From assembly GCA_011503125.2 (NCBI GenBank), contig WWBZ02000051.1:2542001-2606000 (forward strand): DNA of 64,000 nt, in the 5' to 3' direction. The notes under the pieces are model-generated. The model was not told the origin of the DNA. It searched no databases and saw nothing but the letters and a program-made list of their open reading frames with translations. Positions within the stretch are counted from its first letter, which is position 1. Every line of letters begins with the position of its first letter. The position numbers were made by a program, and so were the translations under genes. Origin of the DNA: Botryosphaeria dothidea (lineage: Eukaryota; Ascomycota; Dothideomycetes; Botryosphaeriales; Botryosphaeriaceae). Of this stretch, positions 9,833 through 62,970 are shown in pieces.

Positions 9833-10769
9833 TCAGAAGATCCACTTTCTCAGCTTCATAGACATGTCTGGCTGGGCCCTGTAGAGCTCATCACGGCGTT
9901 GACAGAAGTCGCGCTCTGCCTTGACGATCTTGCAGTTTATCTCATCCTCGGCGGCCTGTATGGAGAGCCCTTCCAAGCTCGACGGCGCTTACAATCCTCT
10001 TCGAATGGCCTGACTGCAGCTCTCTGTATCTCCTCCCCCATCTGAAATAATCATTCGCCAACAAAAGTCCTTCTATGGCTGCATCGATAATAGGCTGCAC
10101 GAGCTCGTGCTCTGCTTCCGAGAACATTGTTCCAAGACTGAACTGGAGCATTGGCCAGAAACCTGTCGCTTGATTAGCCTTGAACTCACAGAATGGAGTG
10201 TGTCTTCTTACAACATCCCACCGTTATCACTGCGGTATTGCAGGTATTCTGCGAGACAAGTTTCTTGGTCTTCATTGCTCTCGATTCCGGTGCCAGGCAT
10301 CTCTTATCGTCCGGATCCAAAGCAGCATAAAGCTTATCATGCTCAGCATGAGCCTCGTCAATGCTGAGGCCCTCGCCAGTGTCTGGACGCACTGTCAGCT
10401 ATATGAGGGGAATCTGGATGGGAGCACTTTACCATCACGAATAAGACCTAGGTCTGAGAGGTAGGCTAACACTCCCAGCCGCTCCGGAATAGCCTCAGGG
10501 TAGACGAGAGAAGACCAGTTCCCCGCTGGCGAGAAAGAGAAATAGGTGTGTTGCTCCCGGCCATCTCCAATTTCCCTTACCCACTCTCTGACAAAGCGGC
10601 GGCTTGCTGCGTCTGCGACATCATCTCGAGGATGGATGCGAATGGGAAGCGTTGTGAAGCAACCCGTCCGGCGGGCCTCATCGGCAGAGACGAGCTTTGA
10701 CTGGTACGACAGCGTGTCCATGGCGTGTAATTTCCTGTAAGAGGCAGTTGCTTGTTTTTCAGTGTTCAT
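9833..10769 (-). pseudogene. Broken terpene-synthase-like gene (N-terminal cyclase domain only)
   Basis: Pieces match the class I terpene-cyclase half of fungal bifunctional di/sesterterpene synthases (fusicoccadiene-synthase type): GCFTTLPIRIHPRDDVADAA, then GNWSSLVYPEAIPERLGVLA, YLSDLGLI, EYLQYRSDNGGM, FWPMLQFSLGTMFSEAEHEL, LLLANDYFRW (the NSE/NDY region), and EINCKIVKAERDFCQRRDEL ending at the stop at 9833. The aspartate-rich metal motif reads RDVRPD rather than the usual DDxx(D/E). EYLQYRSDNGGM is out of frame with both neighbours, and segments after KKLVSQ and after KRIV are missing. No prenyltransferase half follows. The start is 10769, or the internal Met at about 10721. I read it as a decayed cluster gene, transcribed in the same direction as the oxidoreductase beside it. 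Confidence 0.65.
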
Positions 10770-33402: not shown

Positions 33403-34056
33403 ATGGTCAAGACCTCCGTCCTCAACGATGCGCTCAACGCCATCAACAACGCCGAGAAGTCTGGCAAGCGCCAGGTCCTGATCAGGCCCAGCTCCAAGGT
33501 CATCATCAAGTTCCTGCACGTCATGCAGAAGCACGGTACGTCGAGGATTTTCTATACCCAGCATTTTCCATCCAAGCCACCCCCTTCCTCGGGCTGATAA
33601 CTAGCCAATGGTTCGATTTGCACCACAACCATTGGCCTTTAAGTGTCCGAGAGATCAAATCTGCGAAGATCTTACACGTTTTCTGATATTTCTGTGATTT
33701 CCAACGTTTAATCTTCCGCAACATACTGATTTTTTTTCAACAGGCTACATTGGCGAGTTCGAGGAGGTTGACGACCACCGCAACGGCAAGATCGTTGTTC
33801 AGCTCAACGGCCGTATCAACAAGACCGGTGTCATCTCTCCCCGCTACAACGTCCAGCTCAAGGACCTCGAGAAGTGGGTCGTCAAGCTTCTTCCTTCTCG
33901 TCAGTTCGGCTGCATCGTCCTCACCACCTCCGCTGGTATCATGGACCGTAAGTTACTCCGCACAATTTTGATCTCTATGGAGATGCTAACTACTTGGTAG
34001 ATGAGGAGGCCAGGAGGAAGCACGTCGCTGGCAAGATCCTTGGTTTCTTCTACTAG
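33403..34056 (+). CDS. rps22: 40S ribosomal protein uS8 (Rps22/S15A)
   Basis: Three exons, 33403-33535, 33744-33947, 34001-34056, encode exactly 130 residues, the family length: [20 protein letters not shown], then [40 protein letters not shown], and the C-terminal [18 protein letters not shown]. It is a small-subunit protein that binds the 18S rRNA central domain. Intron 1 is 208 bp, four times the local norm, and contains a perfect 10-bp hairpin (33605-33637). Long introns in ribosomal-protein genes often hold regulatory RNA or snoRNA. Confidence 0.96.
33605..33637 (+). ncRNA. Hairpin in uS8 intron 1
   Basis: GCCAATGGTT (33605-33614) and AACCATTGGC (33628-33637) form a perfect 10-bp stem with a 13-base loop inside the intron. 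I do not see clear C/D or H/ACA boxes, so this is a structural element of unknown role rather than a called snoRNA. Confidence 0.4.
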
Positions 34057-50186: not shown

Positions 50187-52437
50187 ATGTCCACCGACTA
50201 CAACTATGACGAACAGGTGCGCGTTCTTTGCGCCCCGCGCCCGCACAACGCCCACCTACTGACTGCGCCGCCAGGGACAATTCTTCCCGTACTTCGTCGT
50301 CACCATCACCGGCCTGGTAACCATTCCGGTCACCATCTCGCTGCTCACTCGCAGCAAGGATCTTGAGAACACGGCCTCGAGAATACAGTCCGACTTCACG
50401 CCCGACCATGTCGATCTCATTGAGGGCCAACGCAAGAAGCTGCGCCGCCAGGAGCGCAAGTTGGGCAAGTTCTTGTTCGCCCTGGGCGGCTGGGTAGTTA
50501 TGGCTTGGATGGTCTATCTCATGGTCGTAACCGCACGAACCGTCCCCAAGATCTGGGATCCCTATGAGGTTCTGGGAGTATCCAGGGTAAGACCGCATGC
50601 GCATACTCGGCGACTTCATTCTGATTATCTGTAGTCTGCCTCTGAGAAGGAGATCAAGTCTTTCTACCGCAAACTCTCCATCACTCACCACCCCGACAAA
50701 GTCCAGCCCGACCCGGCAAAGAACCTGACCATAGACGACATCAATGAGAAATGGGTCGAATACACAAAGGCTTTCAAAGCACTTACTGATGAGGAGGTTC
50801 GCAACAACTACCTGCAATATGGCCACCCCGACGGCAAGCAAAGTTTCAGCATTGGCATCGCCCTGCCGAAATGGATCGTCACCGAGGGCCATGGTAGATA
50901 CGTCTTGCTCGGCTACGGAATTGTTCTTGGAGTTGTCCTGCCTTACCTGGTTGGCAAGTGGTGGTATGGCACTCAGCGCGTTACCAAGGAAAAGGTCCTG
51001 GTCTCTAGTGCGGGCAACATCTTCAAGGAATACAAGCCGGATCTGAGTGAGGGTGGCGTTCTTGCCGCTCTCAGTACTGGAGCTGAATTTGAGGAAGCGC
51101 TCAGAGGAAATAAAGCTGAGGCTGGTCTTTCCAAGGTAGAGTCGAAGCTCTTCCAAGAGGGTGAGCTCTCTCCTCTCGCCGGAGGCCTTAGCGTCAAAAA
51201 CCGTCAGACTTTGGAGGAACTCGATGAAGGCGCTCGCAGGAAGGCTCTCGCTTTGCTTTGGGCCTACCTTGGCCGCGTGGAGCTTGAGGACCCAACGCTC
51301 AATGCTGAAAAGTTCGAGGTTGCGCCAATCGCCCACAAGCTCAACGATGCTTTCTTTGCTATTGCACTTGCTTACGGAAACACTCAACCTCTTCTGGCAT
51401 CCTACCACACCTCTCAGAACGTCCTCCAGGCCATTCCTCCGAAGTCTTCGCCTCTTCTCCAGCTTCCTGGCTTTACCTCAGCTGTTGTTCGCGCAATCGA
51501 AGGTGAGAGCGCGCGGGTACACATGAGCATTGTGGAATACATGAACCTTTCGGAAGATGAGAGGCGCAAGCGCGCAATTGGTCCTGGCCTTCTGTCGGAG
51601 AATGAGTACGCGACCGCTCAGAAGGTTGCGCGCCAACTCCCGCATCTTCATGTCGAGAAGGCTTTCTTCAAGGTTCTTGGTGAGAAGGTCATCATTCCCA
51701 GCAGCTTGGTCCAATTTGTCGTCAAAGCTCGTATCATTCCTCCTGGCTCCACCAACGTTCCCCCGGTCAACGAGAAAGACCTCGAGGATGTCGACCCCAA
51801 GGAAGGTGATCTGGATGCCCTCCATGGCCGCAAGAAGGGCGACGAGGCAGAGGAGGCCAAGAAGGCCGAAACCGCCGGTCAGCCTCCGCTCGCCTACGCT
51901 CCGTACTTCCCCAGGGACCACTCCCCGAGATGGCACGTTTTCCTCTCAGACAGCAGGCAAGGCAAGGTCGCGGTTCCTCCGTTCACGTTCACCAAATTCG
52001 ACAAGCCCCTGTTTGATGAGCAAGGCAACCCGACCTATAACGTTCAGACTCTCAAGATGCAATTCGGTGCTCCGCCCCAGCCTGGCCAGTACAAGTTCAC
52101 CATGAACCTTGTGTGCGACAGCTACATTGGCATGGACACCAAGATGGATGTCACCCTTGTCATCGACCACCCATCGAAGGCAGCAGAGATCGAAGAAGAA
52201 GAGGACATCAGCGAGCCGGATGAGGGTAAGTGGCCACAATACACTGGCAAATTTGAGAGCATTGCTAACCCAAGCTTAGATACTATTGCAGGACAGATGG
52301 CTGCCATGAAGGGCGGCGAGACTAAGAAGCCCAAGGTCCGTAAGGTGGAAGAGTCCAGCGGCAGTGACACCGAGGGAGACGAGGATCTATCGGATACCAG
52401 CGAAACTGATACCGATACCGATACCGATGAAGAGTAG
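50187..52437 (+). CDS. sec63: ER translocon subunit Sec63
   Basis: Exons 50187-50216, 50275-50586, 50635-52225 and 52280-52437, 696 residues. Start MSTDYNYDEQ-GQFFPYFVV, TM helices TITGLVTIPVTISLL, FLFALGGWVVMAWMVYLMVV and YVLLGYGIVLGVVLPYLVG. A lumenal J domain lies at about 104-175 with the HPD triad (SITHHPDKV, about 134-136) that recruits BiP/Kar2. Two Sec63/Brl regions follow (AIAYGNTQPLL-like AIALAYGNTQPLLASYHTSQ; LVQFVVKARIIPPGS; PRWHVFLSDSRQGKVAVPPF). The acidic cytosolic tail ends SDTSETDTDTDTDEE and is the likely Sec62 contact. The last intron (52226-52279, 54 bp, donor GTAAGT, branch GCTAAC, acceptor CTTAG) is a multiple of three without stops; if retained, the product is 714 residues. 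Confidence 0.95.
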
Positions 52438-53447
52438 TGGATTTAGAGCTGCGGCCTTTTTAAGTGTATGATTGGTATGCATTGGTTAGGCGTTTATGAG
52501 GCAAAGAAAGGCTGCTGCTCTGCTCTGCTCTTACTGGGGGTTCTTCCTTCTTATGCTGCGCGTCCTGTTTCAAGGAATACCTTCCGATTTACCCTTGAGG
52601 GCTTGGGCGCGCTTGTTTGGGCTCAAAAAATTATTGTACAGAGGCTGGGCAGACAAGGTGGTAGCGGAATATTCCCTTTGAGAGCTTTCTAATTCGAATT
52701 TGAACTATGTTTAGATGGACCGGTCGTCGTAGCGATGTTTGTGCACTCAAGCCTCAGTTGCTGGAGGCAATTCGATATGTTTTATGCTACTGTCAGCATA
52801 GTGCGATGACGACGGCCAACGCCAATAGACCGTTCTAGACACAGAAGGGGTGACGTGCACCATACCGTCACCGAACGTTCGTCGCTCGCTCTGTTTTTGA
52901 TTCTGCTCCGTAGACAGAGCTAACGGCTTTTTCGACGCCTCGCACAGCAATTCCATAAGCCACACGTGCATACATTCGGCAGCTTCCCGAGTGACGGCGT
53001 TTTTGAGGTAGTTCTGCTAACCCATTGCGGTATGTGTATCCCAGTGGCAAGCCCATTGAAAGCGCGCCAATACGACCGTCTTTAAACCGCGGTCTGTTTC
53101 GCATATGGCTCGATGTGGCTGCTGAGCGGTGCTTTTTCGCCGTAGGACCCCCTTTTATTCCTTGGGTCGAACTATTGTCGTCGTGTTGGTTGTTGTGCGC
53201 AGGCGTAGGTTGATGATTAGAAAGTTGCCAGCGCTAAAGGGATGAGGGAGTTAAGTCTAGAATCCTACCGGCGCCACGGCGGAGGGCGGGATTACTGCAA
53301 CGGGTATGTGACGACACAGTGAGGGCTTAGCACACGTGTCTGCATTCCTTCGAAAAAAGAGCGCATGTATCTGATGGATTCATGGTACTCGACGGTCTGG
53401 CAAGACCAGGAGGAGGATTTACCGACTCGGCGCTAATGCTTCTGGCA
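52438..53447. other. Intergenic between sec63 and the periodic array
   Basis: sec63 3' flank, no gene. A degenerate array-like motif may be present at about 53246-53271 (AAGTCTAGAATCCTACCGG). Confidence 0.45.
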
Positions 53448-56400
53448 TTGGACGTCGCAAAGAATCCTTTACCATGTGTTGTGCGTTATGTGGCGTCGCT
53501 CGGTTCGTCAGCTCTCCCGTCCGGCTTCTCGTTCGTGTTCTCGAACACGCTGACGCTCAAGGCTTCTCCACGGGCATGAAGTCCTGCAGGCGTGGGACTG
53601 CTGGGTGAAGCTTGACTCGTCATCTTCAGACGTAGGAAATGATCCGCTGGCTGCACTATTGCACGATGATTGGCGCAAGGACGTCCTTTTGGACACGCAG
53701 TGCTGAGAACCCGAGGAATGTTGTAAGTATGGTCCTTCTTGGGTCTCACTCTGGCCCTTGCCACTTTCCACTGGCGGTTTCGGAGAGAACAACTTCCAAC
53801 GTAGGAATGGATCCTTCCATCATGATGGCGGAGAGCGGCTGGTGAAGTACAGTAGTGCCGAGACACACTGCTCACGTAGTTCCAGATGCTTGGATGCATT
53901 TGAGGGGTCAAGCCCTCGTTTTGGCGCCTCTCCATTGGCTTTGTCGAATGCACCCTTGGACGTAGCAAATGATCCTTCTATGCAGTCTTACGTGGTTGTT
54001 GCCCTCGAATCATCGCGGAGCCATTTTTTCTGTGTCTTCGAAGTACCTTTCACAGCTGCGAAGTTCTGGACTGTCGACCGCATGCATCTGCCCGGATGAG
54101 TCGACAACATTGAACATAGGAAAGATTCCTACCCAGGTTTCGCATTCATCCATACCACCCTCCGCTGGCCTTCGATCTGTTTCTTTCAGCTCGGCCCGGT
54201 AGTGGTGACCGGACCGGCATTTCCGAGCGGGTCGGGGCCGTGGTAGTGCAACCGTAGAAACAAAGCTCTCGGTGAGAAAGGCGGGCGGCCGGGGCCATCG
54301 CTCCACCGCAGAACCCTGACGCCGGTCTTTTCCTTAACGGTATTATTGCCATTCCAGCCGTGGTCACTCCGATGAACCTCGGGACAGACTTGCAACGTCG
54401 AACGTAGGTAAAAATCCTTTCCAGATCTTGCCGTGCTCCGTGGCTTTACGGCTAACGACCATTGCTTCTTTCGCGCCCCGTAGCGAGCTATTGGGGGGTT
54501 TTTGATAGCTTCCCCGCAAGAAAGGTTCCGGAATGTCTCTGGGTTTTCTAGCGTTTTGCGCCGTCAGGTACCTTCAAACGTAGGAAGGAATCCTTCCCAC
54601 GTCACTGGGATCGAGTGACCTATGGGACTCCGATAGCCTGGATGCACCCGTGCATTGACCATTTAGTCAGAGATGTCTGGCTTCTGATTGATGCTTTCTT
54701 TGTCTAGCTGGCGCGGCCTGCGAAAAGAACTTCAGACGCAGGAAATAATCCTGCCGAGCTGGCCGAAGCGGTGCGGCTGGTCGTGAGGACCGGTACTTTT
54801 GCACTTGGTGCTGTTTCTGGAAGATGGCGCGGAGTTGTGTCCCTTGTACGACCTACTAAGATTTTCTTTGACGGATCCTCGAACGTAGGAAAGAATCCTT
54901 CCATGTGACTGTTGCTCTTTCAGACGGAAAGTGTCATCTTCATGTGAAAAGCTGAGAATATTGAATGTAAGGAACAATCTTTCCCCGGCATTACTATCTT
55001 AAGTGTCCCTTCCCATCATCCTTCACATGAGAAATCAAGGTTTAGGGGATACCTCACAAACGAGGTGAGTTGGGAGAATGTCGAACGTCGGAGAATTCAG
55101 TTCCCTGTCATTGCAGCATCATTCTTGCAGTCAATATTCCTTGCTGTGAGATGACGCGGCCTCTTCCGTCCAGGGTCATGAAGTGGACAACTTCAGCACA
55201 CACCTGGATCCATAATAGCTTCATAACCTATTCCCCCCGGGGACTAGAAGCAATGGAGAATTACCCCCGGCGTTTGCTGCACTGGCGGCAGTAAGCCAGT
55301 ACATGGCGGAACTCGGAGACCACAGTAGTTGTTGAGATGCCTTAGGCTGACGGTATACTCCGACGTCTTTGCACGGCAAGTGTCGTTCCGTTCCAAACTA
55401 AGCTATAGTCGAAAACATTAGGACCACTCCTGAAGCCCATGGATGACCCTAATGACTGTTCTGTGAAGGTTCAGATTGGAAAAAATTCTCCTAACCATAG
55501 CAGCTGGAAGAAGTTTCGAAGGTTCGTCTGGCCTGACCACTCTCTCCGTTGCAGCCACTGATCTGATTGCTTGGACGGAGCTTTTGTGGGTTTAATTGGC
55601 TAATCCGCTGAACGGCATGTGGCCGTTGAGAGCATCTTACAACGCCTGAAAGAATCCTTCGATGCCACTGGTGGCCAGTGGCTGATAGATCAACGCAGTG
55701 GTCGGAACAATAGAGCTGTGCTGTTGAAGACGGCTTCTCTACGGTGCTCCTGACTTAGGCATATTCGGTAATAGGTCCTGGAATACGAAACGAGTATCGC
55801 ACGTATCTGTGGATCCTCCCAAATATATATATACAATCTTTGAGCGAGTACAAGGGCTCTCGGCCGGCGCGGCGCAGCGCCATCTACGAGATGTGGAGAA
55901 ACGGATGCTCACGGCTTGCTAAAGTGGGAGTATGCTTGAACGTCTAAAAGGCTCCTTCCGGTCGCCGAGGTCCACAATGGCGCCGAGCTTTCAAACACGA
56001 GGATCAGACCATAGGTCTTCTACTGAACGCCATTATTGTGAAGTTTGGCAGATTTCTGGCGCAAGTTAGCTTGAAGTTTGCTTTTTGACGCAGCACGAGT
56101 AAGGCAACATTAAACGTCTGAAGAAATCCTTCCGCCCGATGCTTAGTACAATGGTTGCAAGTATAAGCGTGCCAGGACACAAACACCTCGGCATCCCGGC
56201 CACATTCATTTGAGGTGAGTGCAATACTTGGCTTTCGCCTCACTCTCGCTCACTCTATTGCAGTCCTCATCCTCGAACGTCGCAAGAATCCTCGCGCGCC
56301 CAATAGATTAAGTGGGCCGAGACCATTGCCATTTCAGGCAGTAATTGAGAGGGGAAAGCTGCTCCCCCGGGTAAGCCCCAGGATCTGCAGGATCGTGTTC

Positions 56401-59400
56401 CTGGAAGCTTTTAGCCTTTCTCCCGTCTCGCAGATAGGAAAAAGCAAAAATCACGATAACAGAGCGACAATGTCGAACGTCTGAAAGAATCCTCCAGGAG
56501 CTCTTTTTCGCAGCTGCCGGCACTTCTTCACCGCCACATCAGGTAGCCACTTAACGCACCAACCGTCCCCACAGCCCCGGTACCGCCCCCGGCGCACTGT
56601 GTACATGCGTGGTGTCCTTTCGCCTTTGCATGGCGCATCAACCATTCTGCCCACCACGGCTCCAGCTTTCGGCTCTTGCCATAGTTCGAAGTCTGGGGCG
56701 TCGAGCGCGTCGGGGAAATCCTTTCGGTGATATTGTGTTTCGCCGCAAAGGCACTACCACACGGGGAAACGCTCAGAGAGTTTGGAACACTTTGCGGCCG
56801 TACCAGCTGCGAAGTTGCGCCAACTGCTGGATTGTGCATACCACACGGTTCACCATTAGCCAACAACTTCGAACGTCTGAAATACCCTTGCATTTGCCTA
56901 AATTGGCCTTAGCTGGCCAGCTTAGTCCCGATGTTTGCAACCTTGTAGCTGCACACTACGTAGCTAAACATACCTCCTTAGGTTGAGGATATGCAGGGGG
57001 CTTCCTTTGTTCTTTGCTTTTGCCCCGGCCTCCGCAATTCGTGTCTCTCCGCACAACTTCCAACGCCTAAGGCATTCATTCGGCGTATTCATGAAAAAAG
57101 CAGTGGTGCGCCTTGCCTGCCTGCCGCCCGAGGTGAGTGTAAATGTGCTCGTGTAGGCCCGAGAGCAGCTACAATGGCCGGTACGGGCTTCTCAACTTTG
57201 AACGTCTGAAAATCCCTTCGGAGGTATAGTAGCCTCGAGATTGGCCGTGAGCATAACTGCTTCTAGCAATGCACTGGGATGTTCAAGAAGCAATTCGTAA
57301 TCGTTGCGGCTCGGGCCCTTCGTAACATAAGATTGATTGGGGTTTACCCTGTCAATGGGACCGAGAATCTCCGGTAACCAGAGACGATCGTAAAGCTACC
57401 AGTCGGCGGTCGTGACAACTGAAAGTCTCAACAGCGCCCCGAGACCAGGGACCCAACACTCTAGACCGTCGGCTACTTTCTCTGGGTCAATATCTTCGAA
57501 CGTCTGAAAAATCCTTCGGCGACGTCGCAGCGAGTAGAACCTTGACCATTGCCGCATGAAGCAACTGCCGGAATATGTGTCGGCCACCATACCCTGTCAA
57601 CTGCATCAAACCCTAATAAGTGCGGCTTCGGCTGCCACCAGAAAGATGTTCAAACGTCTGGAAAAATCCTTTGATCCTCCGCGATTTGCCATACCCATTT
57701 CGACTCAGGTTACGACTCAATTTCCTGGTTACATCGGCCGCAAGACGTATGATCTTCATAACCCTCGACAACATTGAACACAGTCCCACCCCTGTTCGAG
57801 CATGCTGCGCGGTAAAGGCAAGATTTGCCGTGGTAGAGTGGGTCAGCCAGACTTTAATCCCACGATGCCCCTCTCACAGAGCCCCGGCAATCATCCAAGG
57901 TACTTCTTCATCGCATTTCCATACTTAGCTCTCGTATTCTATAACAACCTCGAACTTCTGAAAGAATCCTTCGGAAGATCTTCTCCAAGTAAAGGGCCGT
58001 AGCTCCCATACCATCACCACATCTCATTAGTTTCCGTAGTCATCACCTCACGAAGATGAGACCAGCGGAGCAAAATCCATCTCTGCTCCGGTTCTAAAGC
58101 TAATTCGTAGCGTTGAATGTCGAAAAGGGATCGTCTCGCCAGCCAAAGAAGAGGTGGCGGCTTGAAGACCTTGGTCTTCGAGGGTCCAGAACAACAAAAC
58201 AGTGACGCCTCCACGACTTGGAACCCACGCGGCTCAAAGCAGCTAGCATTCGGGAGTGACGGACCGTAGCCGCCTCATAAACAATTTATCCAACCACAAT
58301 CGAGAAGATACGTCTTTCGTATACATGGTCAGTGCGACACCAACGCAAACACGTAAGCTAATTATTTTCTTAGCTGGCGAAACACACTACCACTGCACCT
58401 GTCAGGAGGTTCCCAGTGGTTCTGATGGACGATCACTCTCTCGCCCGCGGAGAAAGGCTCCGTAGTCGTGACGCAAGCTCTTCTATTCTGACAAGTTCAC
58501 TCATCAGACGGAGAGTCGTCCGTGATCCCGGCGGGCTGGAACAGTTCGACCGGCTACGCGGCCTAAAATAACGGCTCCGTTACGTTAGCGGACCAGAGGC
58601 AACTACTTGTGGGATTGGTGCGAGCCAAAAGAGGCCAACCAAACACCAACACCAATAGTCTGCTGCCAAGAATGCGGGCACTACCAACTCAAATTCTCTG
58701 ATGATGAATACCTCAAAGAGGACCAAGATCAACTTCGAACGTCTGAAAACTCTCTCGGCGGCATTTCTGAATTCAAGCACACTAAAGACAACGCCCAACC
58801 CTGATTCCTTGTCACCAACCACGTGGTCCTGTGGCTTTGGAGTCGGATTATGCTTCAAGTGGAATCGTACATCCACCACTTTTGTCCTATATTCTTACCC
58901 ATGAAAGTGTCAGTAATCCTACATGCTCCCGCGTCAGTATTGCATCTACCGTCAGAAAACATAGCTGTGAACCCCGCTCAAGTCGACCACCTCATCGACG
59001 GACTCGGTACACTCCGCTGGCGTCCCCCTTTTCTCTCGGGCAGTCCCGTACCCAAACCACCACTCGCCCCTCATTCCAGAAGCCCAACAGGGAGTTCGCC
59101 GCCATGCAAACACCCAAACTCCCAACGCCAGAAAAGGAGATTTCTGGCCCCCGATCAGAGGTCACCCCACCAATAACTTCCAAATCTCGATCGAGCCCAT
59201 CATGTTCAAACGTCTGAAGGCAGCTTCCGTTCTTCCGTCAAACGTCTAGCAGGCGCTTTGAACCCTTGCCATCCCCACTTCCAAAGGCATGTACCGTTCT
59301 CTCTGCCCCCAGCGTTGGGAGAGGGCAACCTCCGAAGCAGCTAATCAGACCCGACTACCACCACCACCACCACCGCCGCCGCCGCCGCCTTAATTTCGAC

Positions 59401-59532
59401 CGCCCTCCACGTTCAAACGTCTCAAGGCACCTTCCGCCCTACAACCACACGTCTAAAAGGCAACACCCGAGAACGACAACAGCGCAAAGCCACCTCTCAA
59501 ACAACATCGAACGTCTGACGGGCGCTTCCGCC
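53448..59532 (+). repeat. Non-coding array of a 20-26 bp motif at about 158-bp periodicity
   Basis: No credible gene in 6.1 kb. A motif close to AACGTCTGAAAGAATCCTTC, usually preceded by ACAACNTCG or CTTC and followed by GG or C, recurs on the plus strand. Clear copies begin near 53448, 53624, 53792, 53955, 54107, 54397, 54571, 54729, 54878, 54957, 55079, 55635, 55935, 56108, 56271, 56471, 56700, 56867, 57056, 57197, 57493, 57648, 57949, 58111, 58731, 59204, 59236, 59411, 59446 and 59505. Weaker ones are near 54249, 55244, 55408, 55467, 55797, 57352, 57770, 58442 and 58553. Successive starts are mostly 140-175 bp apart, and several gaps are near multiples of that. DNA between copies shows no obvious mutual similarity. 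Left copies have the form ACGTAGGAARGAATCCTTCC (near-palindromic), right copies CTGAAAGAATCCTTCGG. Base composition is ordinary, not AT-rich. Confidence 0.82.
59356..59389 (+). repeat. (CCA)n(CCG)n microsatellite
   Basis: Simple triplet run inside the right end of the motif array, changing from CCA to CCG units. Confidence 0.85.
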
Positions 59533-60898
59533 CGCCGCATGCGGAAGGAGTAAGAGCTCTTACCACGTATAAAAGGCACGGCAAGGGAACGTTTGCAAAT
59601 AGGAAGAACGCGGTAAACTCCAAGCGCGTCACACGTTATGAACGAAATCAACCAAGGCCATCAGTGCGTAGGGCTGTGGCCGCATGATGTGCGCGCGACC
59701 AAATTCCCCCATTTCGCACGGGTCGCATGATGGAGTGAGGAGAGAGACAAGAGACCGGCCAGGCCGGAACCACACCGGGCCATCCCGCTGTGCCGCACAA
59801 CCATATAAAGATGGGGGGATAGGCCCAACGCGTGAGTGGTCACGCGGAGATGGGAGGATTTGGACAGATAGAGAGAGGGGGGCAGAGTGGCGAAAATCGT
59901 AATTGCGGCGCTCTGTTGCTGCGCGGTCATAGCGTCGCATCTCATCGCCAAACCGGGGGCGAAAAGCGCATCGTAAAGGCCGATCGGATGACTGCGACGA
60001 GCGAGATCTCACGTTTGCTGCAGGAGCGTGGAGAAAGTAAGTTGACACGACGAGTATGATAAAAAGCCAAGCAATAGTACTGATAGCAATCCTCTCAAAA
60101 TGGATCTAAGATGCTAATTGGACCAACCAATATTGCCCTTACATGTACAAAGAAGAGAAGGTAGAAGGCGGCGTCAGTACAGAAGGAAAGTGGCCTTTGC
60201 TCATCTGCCATCACGCCGCTTGGGGAAGGGAAAAACACACAATATAGCAAATGTACGGTTGCTCTCGCATGTCCGACGTGCGTATGACGAACCACACCTG
60301 TTCAAAACCTCCATCACTCGAAATCCTCCTTGCGTGTAGTATTTTCCGTGGCCACCCGGAAGTCAAAAGAAAACAAAGTCCCGGTGCAGACATTTGAAAA
60401 CACATTAAAACCATCTCGTGGGGCTGCGTGATCGAGGACTCGAGATTTATCTGCGCAAGAGCGAAGCGCTCTGCGCATTAGATGAAAAGACGTGGAACAT
60501 GGAGTGTGAAAATAGGTGTGGGAGAGGTAGATAGGAGACTCGCATAGGAGAGAGAAATAAGGTAGCCCGGTTCCGCTATGAGACAGAAGAGACACATCAA
60601 ACCAATTCCCAGCCCATCGTGCTTGCCCTGCCATTCCGTGCCATCCCTTCTTTCATACTCATTCCATTGCATCAAACCAGATAGACAGCCATCCCACCTC
60701 AAGAAAATCATCAAACACCCGACTCTCTTGTGCATGACGGGAACAAAAAGAAATTCATTGTTGCTCATGGTCGAAAAAGACTCCGGTACCGCTCCAGGCG
60801 GGATGGAGAGATCGATGAAACGAAGATTATGCGCGCAAACGATCGTCTTCACTTTTCTCGTCGTATCCCAAACAAACAAAAATCGTACAGGATGCTCA
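59533..60898. other. Intergenic, 3' side of the MAPKK gene
   Basis: No gene recognised. The array motif does not continue beyond about 59532. Confidence 0.5.
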
Positions 60899-62970
60899 TT
60901 ACTCCTCGAGGGGAGGCGGCGGTGGAACATCCGGAGTAGCCGATGGAGTGCCTTGAGGGCTTGAGACCGCATCCAGAGGAGCAGCATGCAACGCAGGCTT
61001 TTGGCTCTGTGCCAGTTTGCCACTTCTCTTCTTCTCTATGGCATGAATGACCCATTGAGCGACTTCTGGATCCTCGGGGGCTTCCTTGCCGGTGTAGTCC
61101 ACGTGGACGCCGGGGGCCGCGGCAGTTTCCTCGCTCTCTTCTTCCTCTTCGGTAATGGTCGCGGGTTTCAGGAGAGGTGCTAGCCATGCGTGTTGAAGAA
61201 GCATGGCATAGGTGGGGCGGAGATTGGGTATTTTGTTTAGACAGCCGCGAACAAAGTTCCGTGCGGCCTCGGAGAAGCCGTCAGCGGGAAGGTCCGGAGG
61301 TTCGCCGTCGACAATTGCCTGTTTGACGTCATTCGCTGATCTGGACCGTCTAGACATTCGTCATCGAGGGAAAATTAACTTACGCTGAGTTGGCTGAAGA
61401 TGTTGTTGTAGGTTTCGGGTGGGTAAGGGTATCGGCCCATGGCGCATTCAATGATAGTCAAGCCCAAACTCCAGATGTCGCTCTGCACGCTGTACGTGCC
61501 GCCACCAGGGTTGGCACCGGCCTGTGCAACACCTCCATTCGATATCCTCTCGGGGGCCATATAACTCTGGCAGCCGATGTTCGTCTTGGCTATGCTAGCA
61601 ACCAAATTACCACTGACACCGAAGTCGCAAATCTTGACCTGGCCCTTGGAGTTGATGAGAATGTTCGTTGGCTTCACATCACGATGGATGATGTTGTGGT
61701 CGTCTTTGAGCGCCTTGAGGCCCATTGTCGTCGCAAGCGTAATTTTCCGTAGGACGTTTTCCGGGATTCCTTCTCCGTAGAGCTTGTCTATCGATCCGCC
61801 GTCCATGAACTCCATGCAAATGTATACCGCACCCTCTTGGAAGAAGGCTCCGTAAAAGTCAACGATGTAAGGGGATACGCAACGGTGCAGAATGTCGAGC
61901 TCCATGATAATGGCCGCGAACTTGGCGTCGTCCAGTTCCAAACGGATCTCCTTCATCGCCATGACCACACCCGTCGTGCCAGTAGCAGCCTTGGCGGACG
62001 TCGGGCTCGAGTCAGTCGTGAGATCGTTTTTGTTTGCCGGCGAACCAGGAACTACTGGCATAGAATGGGCTTTGTTTCCCGCCAGGCCAAGACCCGGTCG
62101 CCTCATCTGCGGCCGAGCATGCCTGACCTTGTACACTGTGCCATAGTTGCCTTTGCCAAGCTCGTCCAGAGTGTCCACCTCATCAAGAGAAATGCTGAAC
62201 GACGAACCACTGGCAAACTCAACGCCCTTGTTGGTGAGGGTCGCCTTGCCAGCAAACCGCAAGCTTCCAGTCTCCTTGTCCAAAAATTCGGAATACCTCT
62301 CCAGCATGGAGCCGCCATTGGGCTGAGCGCCGGGATTTTGCGCGCCTCCAGCTGGCCCTGACCCGCCGTTGATGTCCCCCAACTTCAGATTTGGTTTCCT
62401 CCGACCGCCAGGGGCTGGGCTCGGTGTTCCGTTGGGTTGCGAACCGGGAAGACCGCCGGGCAAAACCATGCCACGTTTCTCCGCCAATGAAGGTTTGTTC
62501 CCGCCGCCCGGCCCTCGCAGGCCAGGGACCGCAGGCGCGGAAGGGAAATGAGGTATTCCCGGCTTGCCTGCCTGACCGGGCAACTGAAAGTTCTTTGGGA
62601 TACCTCCCGCAAAAGCGGCGCCGGGGGATTGAGGCATTGGGCTTTGAGCGCTCGTGGGGGCTGGACCGGCCTGTGGCCTGGACAGTTGGACAGCCTTCAT
62701 GCGGTCAAGAATGTGTTGCGGAAGACCGCCGCCATGCCTGGAGACGGTGGGGTGTTTTGCGCCGGGCTGGCGAGCGGCGTTGAGGGCACCCAAGGGCGTC
62801 GACGAGGCCGTCATGCCGGAGGTGGTGGGAGCGGTCGACACAGAACGGCCGAGCGGCGGCTGGGCAACAGGAGAAGAGGGCGAAGGCGAGGGGATGTCGG
62901 GGCTCGAGGGCGACTCGAGCGGCGAGGAGACGTCGGACAGCTGGTCCTCGTCGGGGGTTGAGGCGGCCAT
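60899..62970 (-). CDS. pbs2: MAP kinase kinase, Pbs2 type (HOG pathway)
   Basis: Two exons, 62970-61384 and 61318-60899, 65-bp intron, 668 residues. A long Ser/Pro/Gly-rich N-terminus with LPQHILDRMKAVQLSRPQ precedes the kinase domain. Visible are DELGKGNYGTVYKVRHA (Gly loop), VVMAMKEIRLELDD (VAIK Lys), an insert of about 45 residues between them, CMEFMDGGSIDKLYGEGIPE, the catalytic loop IIHRDVKPTNILI, DFGVSG, and the activation segment SIAKTNIGCQSYMAPERI, whose S-x-A-K-T sites are the MAPKKK targets. GCQSYMAPERI is a Pbs2 hallmark within MAPKKs. The end is acidic then proline-rich (TITEEEEESEETAA; DVPPPPPLEE). It should phosphorylate Hog1 in the osmo/oxidative stress pathway, which in fungi sits downstream of hybrid histidine kinases. 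Confidence 0.93.

Follow-up and report, generated by a model that had tools for sequence, protein, structure and literature searches.

What a short box repeated over and over in a single orientation is doing between two ordinary genes is the question raised by a locus of Botryosphaeria dothidea, where 8.5 kb of non-coding DNA separates the convergent genes sec63 and pbs2 (Table 1). The window, i.e. the whole stretch of 64,000 nucleotides analysed, corresponds to C47:2,542,001-2,606,000 of the 51.7-Mb assembly, and its positions are used throughout unless a contig is named. The Sec63 and DnaJ domains at the left and pbs2 at the right, whose protein is identical to a B. dothidea record, place the array where the preliminary description had put it.

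An iterated ungapped profile gave 27 boxes, all on the forward strand, with the A of AACGT at 53,451-59,510 and scores of 17.7-39.4 bits; elsewhere in the window it exceeded 8 bits at two places on the forward strand and one on the reverse strand (best 10.3). A sequence-only covariance model built from the 27 boxes re-finds them by construction (E 2e-7 to 0.057), and in a scan of the window no further site stood out. The next-ranked site lay at 10,041 (+, E 0.46), that at 54,583 (-, E 0.96) corresponded to the palindromic portion of a box, and four forward sites within the array (58,109, 56,708, 59,237 and 57,767) followed at E 2.4-9.3. Thus, the one-orientation array reported previously was confirmed, while the number of copies, given there as at least 30, is lowered to 27 firm ones because nothing else in the window stands out. 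The 20-mer used in that description had 8 matches within 3 mismatches, against 0.02 expected. The core consensus of the main array is CAACTTCGAACGTCTGAAAGAATCCTTCG, and column information spans -8 to +20 around AACGT, with a sharp drop on either side. Boxes 2-10 and boxes 14-27 differ by A versus C, mostly as GTAGG versus GTCTG, and box 1 and boxes 11-13 are mixed in this respect.

Table 1 Coordinates of the flanking genes, the boxes of the main array and the further arrays. Positions without a contig refer to the window.
Feature	Position	Strand	Basis	Remarks
sec63, 3' exon	50635..52437	+	Pfam DnaJ and Sec63; ORF	left flank, transcribed towards array
Box 1	53443..53471	+	profile	
Box 2	53621..53649	+	profile	GTAGG type
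Box 3	53790..53818	+	profile	GTAGG type
Box 4	53951..53979	+	profile	GTAGC
Box 5	54105..54133	+	profile	ATAGG
Box 6	54393..54421	+	profile	GTAGG type
Box 7	54569..54597	+	profile	GTAGG type
Box 8	54727..54755	+	profile	GCAGG
Box 9	54874..54902	+	profile, 39.4 bits	GTAGG type, top score of array
Box 10	54956..54984	+	profile	GTAAG
Box 11	55076..55104	+	profile	
Box 12	55633..55661	+	profile	
Box 13	55792..55820	+	profile, 17.7 bits; covariance model, E 0.057	weakest of 27
Box 14	55931..55959	+	profile	
Box 15	56105..56133	+	profile	GTCTG type
Box 16	56268..56296	+	profile	
Box 17	56468..56496	+	profile	GTCTG type
Box 18	56864..56892	+	profile, exact core search	exact genome-wide core
Box 19	57054..57082	+	profile	
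Box 20	57193..57221	+	profile	GTCTG type
Box 21	57491..57519	+	profile	GTCTG type
Box 22	57645..57673	+	profile	GTCTG type
Box 23	57945..57973	+	profile	
Box 24	58730..58758	+	profile, exact core search	exact genome-wide core
Box 25	59201..59229	+	profile	GTCTG type
Box 26	59408..59436	+	profile	
Box 27	59502..59530	+	profile	GTCTG type
pbs2, MAP kinase kinase	60899..62970	-	C-terminal ORF assigned by eye	right flank, transcribed towards array, two ORFs
L083	C47:1,033.2-1,036.3 kb	-		13 boxes; 1.56 Mb from main array
L080	C47:2,426.9-2,427.2 kb	-		4 boxes; gaps 88-106
ARR2	C47:3,342.1-3,351.3 kb	both, in runs		21 boxes above threshold of 14
L061	C29:2,597.6-2,598.3 kb	-		6 boxes; 4/5 gaps 74-87
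L060	C36:2,002.2-2,003.5 kb	+		6 boxes
L084	C69:785.6-788.9 kb	mixed		6 boxes

Pairwise comparison of the spacers gave a mean local score of 15.78, against 15.49 in shuffled sequences (sd of mean 0.10), and the best pair scored 26, against a mean best of 28.2 in the shuffles. This is a very slight excess, without alignable homology, and Tandem Repeats Finder listed no array at the locus. The intervening DNA is therefore unrelated and conservation is limited to the box, as had been proposed, and the array is not a young satellite. Its GC content is 0.523, and RIP indices of 0.73 and 1.15, versus 0.61 and 1.25 for the window, bear out the absence of any sign of RIP. A protein-coding exon was rejected: the 99th percentile of the codon-model score was 0.03 in the array, against 0.23-0.42 in sec63 and 0.07-0.31 in pbs2, both of which were part of the training set. 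AT and GC skews flip sign at about 55-58 kb, inside the array, such that in 53,000-60,000 T and G are in excess at the left and A and C at the right; the switch could be a trace of convergent read-through from sec63 and pbs2. Three copies of GAGGTGAGT, which resembles a 5' splice site, are present in spacers of the array (near 55,062, 56,213 and 57,132). The H/ACA snoRNA snR44, at 33,587-33,726 (+), was the sole Rfam match in the window at the gathering score.

In a search of the genome, whole-box patterns matched mainly the main array, and two matches 0.74 Mb away had the 5' half alone in common with it. This 5' half, CAACTTCGAACGTC, has 44 exact occurrences in the genome, against none of the reversed pattern and 0.37 expected, which we grouped into 36 places, some of them mutual copies. 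The 18-mer CAACTTCGAACGTCTGAA was found within 3 mismatches at 139 sites (100 of them, and all 44 exact CAACTTCGAACGTC sites, were listed) versus 55 for the reversed pattern, and a degenerate form of the core at 111 sites versus 24. A similar 18-mer had 18 matches in bacterial and archaeal genomes, where about 15 were estimated by chance, and none in viral contigs. The earlier interpretation thus holds as regards an array and was incomplete in that the 5' half occurs genome-wide, with further arrays, and the box consists of two modules. Four array regions are located on contig C47 alone, and at many other places there are only one or two boxes. The list of arrays was drawn from the stretches analysed, such that arrays with weaker cores may be missed and many single-box flanks are short. 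A unit of about 1.9 kb is present on contig C40 (14.3 kb) as an inverted pair and again at C18:66-67 kb (97-99% identity), and the core sites of C41 are arranged likewise. At L069:1,809-1,944 and L072:949-1,082 the 137 bp surrounding a box are 84% alike, and L071 seems distantly similar to them. A U2 snRNA gene lies close to the second array (L052:7,296-7,486, -; C47:3,353,295-3,353,485).

The spacing of the boxes had been described as near a nucleosome repeat. In the main array 15 of the 26 gaps measure 139-200 bp, a range picked after inspection of the data, against a mean of 3.8 and a maximum of 12 in 20,000 random placements; with a 60-bp range left free, P was 0.0002 (5,000 random placements). 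The best period, from adjacent and next-adjacent differences, was 156 bp, a value without its own null, and the spacing noted earlier is thereby borne out. In L083 the best period was 153 bp, with a free-range P of 0.045. Spacing on the nucleosome scale does not hold for all arrays, since the spacings of L061 and L080 are mostly 74-106 bp and ARR2c and L060 have no clear period.

A dispersed core amid unrelated flanks, with a nucleosome-like period in two arrays, might also be left by a mini mobile element, if box-sized insertions into nucleosome linkers had seeded the arrays. This origin is very improbable: target-site duplications at 109 boxes were no commoner than in shuffled pairings, and a look-alike dispersed inverted-repeat element does not score. 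No terminal inverted repeats were found at the conserved stretch of 18-29 bp. The look-alike is a near-palindromic, MITE-like element of about 80-85 bp with inverted ends around GGAGTSGAAGCATTCGTCCGGACG; one arm of it has 232 sites within 3 mismatches, against none reversed, and the nearest listed ones are at C47:2,629,039 and C47:2,636,322, right of the window. Its inner part resembles the box, and kinship between the two was rejected because the profile scores of its sites are weak (per-site p about 1.3e-5 for the best, 2e-4 to 8e-3 for the rest).

Alignment of 70 boxes outside the window disclosed the shared motif CAACTTCGAACGTC(G/T)(G/C)(A/G)A, beyond which, within 130 bp, only columns -3 and -94 passed the 99.9% null. 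The 24 bp following the core are alike within clusters and differ between them (z 17.3, cluster-label permutation), as deduced from 94 of 122 boxes in 13 clusters of at least three; places with fewer than three boxes were dropped, and L064 and L076 (copies of L063), L053 and L054 were omitted. By cluster, z was 12.1 in the main array, where the value is inflated because the profile that picked its boxes included the 3' half, 12.1 in L080, 7.9 in L083 and 6.4 in L061. ARR2c was moderate (2.9), and the other eight clusters (-0.9 to 1.8) had no second-half likeness. Thus, the second half is array-specific in five of the 13 clusters; boxes outside the main array had been picked with a core profile of 18 positions, 4 of which lie within the tested stretch. 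Overall, neither the 48 bases upstream nor the 48 that follow the tested stretch were alike within clusters (z 0.3-1.2); single blocks deviated, for instance 48-72 bp downstream in L060 (z 4.3). Sharing of GGAGTCGACTCC in L060, an impression by eye, was rejected (within-array z 1.4).

The second half-site is GAATCCTTC in the main array, and GCCAAGGGGTTGGC and CTACGGCCGTG were found one each in two more arrays. YGANTCG, a palindrome around one free middle base, is common to ARR2c and L083, which lie on the same contig at a distance of 2.3 Mb. The L080 module with ACGTC occurs nowhere else within 3 mismatches (4 matches; reversed control 1). Genome-wide, the short pattern linking the core with GANTC was not enriched (222 versus 293 reversed), and a longer type-B pattern had 12 matches versus 12 reversed, eight of the former in the two type-B arrays.

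Array-specific 3' halves and unit lengths, mostly in one orientation, would fit local duplication, and the main array falls into two blocks, its left and its right boxes; both features are in favour of decayed old satellites in which the box, devoid of function, would be the slowest part or be kept by local copying. Such an origin appears improbable, considering that the same core lies at 36 places amid unrelated flanks and that the spacers are at saturation and the boxes are not.

The simplest reading is instead a putative site for protein binding, of which the first half is constant and the second, in some arrays, specific. Accordingly, the binding-site array suggested in the preliminary description is retained as the best explanation: the arrays would be clustered sites, at dozens of intergenic places, for a sequence-specific chromosomal DNA-binding protein or a related family, to which we assign a probability of about 0.45. 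Its support comes from the genome-wide excess of the motif, including the 44 exact cores against none reversed, from the unrelated flanks of the 70 boxes, from second halves that are alike within clusters, from the period in L083 and the main array, from covariation at shuffle level in the main array and from the position of all 33 box loci outside coding runs. One part of the protein would read the common half-site CAACTTCGAACGTC(G/T), and the following half-site, which is peculiar to the array in several cases, would be read by another domain, by a partner or by a paralogue. A repeat every 153-156 bp is about one nucleosome repeat, and therefore the bound protein could occupy successive linkers; it would then create a phased, polar block of chromatin, here between two convergent genes. 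The long oriented site, its clustering, the nucleosome-scale period of two arrays and the location between genes all fit an architectural protein of the chromosome; protein binding, linker placement and a boundary or chromosome-organising function are inferred. Convergent gene ends would be a natural place for such a protein. Counting against docking sites are the eight of 13 clusters without an array-specific second half, the limited occurrence of the period, the flank likeness in L060 and a gene-3'-end bias not significantly different from that of the control.

A structured RNA had been named as an alternative, and the boxes might be hairpin-bearing repeats within a long non-coding RNA, or else small-RNA promoters like the nematode 21U-RNA motif. 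Some 3' halves are indeed palindromic (L080), and the 32 nt after the core have a slight folding excess (mean percentile 0.41; 70 boxes outside and 12 inside the window); the mean folding z was -0.29 on the forward strand of the array, -0.53 in its left part and +0.09 in the left flank. Covariation, assessed in a single hairpin register of the main array, was at shuffle level, with 113 of 500 shuffles as high. The array had neither an Rfam match nor a tRNA, and T-run signals were lacking, as were words at a constant distance other than the next box. YGANTCG cannot fold into a hairpin and can be read by DNA-binding proteins, which favours docking sites. The RNA alternative was thus not borne out and is regarded as quite improbable. 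An Rfam scan of 20 box loci returned U2 alone, and an origin from a small-RNA promoter, a tRNA or a SINE was rejected, as no signals were found in the loci scanned.

The main rival of docking sites for a chromosomal protein is a plain transcription factor, in which case the box would be the core of a fungal regulator and the arrays huge clusters of its sites, acting as enhancer or silencer and without any architectural role. A core of 14-18 bp with many single sites is typical of such factors, whereas 27 sites in 6 kb between convergent genes, at their 3' ends, would be unusual for a regulator. This explanation, which is considered unlikely, does not account for the array-specific second halves, and a Pfam scan of 40 neighbouring ORFs disclosed no functional theme among the few named neighbours. 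None of 33 box loci fell within a coding run, compared with one or two of 35 control loci, a comparison that says little because the control loci are mostly the intergenic inverted-repeat element. At the 20 of 33 loci with a callable flank (simple codon model, middle threshold), flanking genes face the boxes with the 3' end in 18 cases and the 5' end in 7, against 14 and 11 for the control (P 0.38; with the two remaining thresholds, 0.59 and 0.22). The preference for gene 3' ends stays a hint because the difference from the control is not significant.

A bolder form of the docking-site reading is a sequence-addressed system of chromosome organisation in a fungal lineage, comprising a universal half and an array-specific address, with the largest array phased by nucleosomes and the whole read by a protein family. 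This form is speculative and unlikely; if true, loci would get an identity of their own for looping, pairing or boundary formation. We know of no sequence-specific counterpart in fungi of the task that CTCF-like proteins have in animals. A site that is oriented, clustered and spread over the genome, in intergenic DNA with an ordinary GC content, is a concrete candidate for a part in chromatin organisation, and common plus array-specific halves would be an unusual way of addressing individual loci.

In a literature search outside which preprints and most subscription papers fell, the letters of the box retrieved unrelated papers only, and no description of such arrays was found in titles and the beginnings of abstracts; excerpts of the B. 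dothidea genome paper (PMC7325678) treat repeats in general terms. The arrays resemble CTCF clusters and the Su(Hw) insulator array in that long, oriented sites for a presumed architectural protein are clustered, but differ from them in motif and in the near-nucleosome period, and CTCF is not known from fungi. According to excerpts of one article, CTCF is restricted to higher metazoans and the limits of fungal chromatin loops and domains are not fully characterised, AT-rich heterochromatin (N. crassa, E. festucae) being named as one possible means (PMC10246852). Replication-fork-barrier arrays of the Sap1, Reb1 and Fob1 type also consist of polar sites in one orientation between genes, although with different motifs.

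Comparison with the CENP-B box of alpha satellite, a short box kept while the rest of the repeat diverges, is an analogy only. The CENP-B consensus is nTTCGnnnnAnnCGGGn; the core of the present box has TTCG but lacks CGGG at the required place, and the boxes are dispersed over many contigs, with unalignable spacers. TFIIIC B-boxes, which form clusters in the boundary repeats of fission yeast, have the consensus GWTCRANNC, and the core, on its reverse strand, contains a similar GTTCGAA. However, the closing C is missing, since the reverse strand is GACGTTCGAAGTTG and has T at that place in 63 of 70 boxes (core position 2 = A), and the box extends well beyond. No tRNA genes were found in the window or in 34 box loci, which alone does not exclude TFIIIC because extra-TFIIIC sites need none. 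The meiotic pairing centres of C. elegans are sites of the zinc-finger proteins HIM-8 and ZIM, with a motif type that follows the chromosome. Here, by contrast, modules of three types occur on the single contig C47 (that of the main array, that of L083 and ARR2c, and that of L080), so that the type is not chromosome-specific; like the pairing centres, the arrays repeat a short motif many times amid unrelated spacers, and a family of related proteins serves the variant motifs of the pairing centres.
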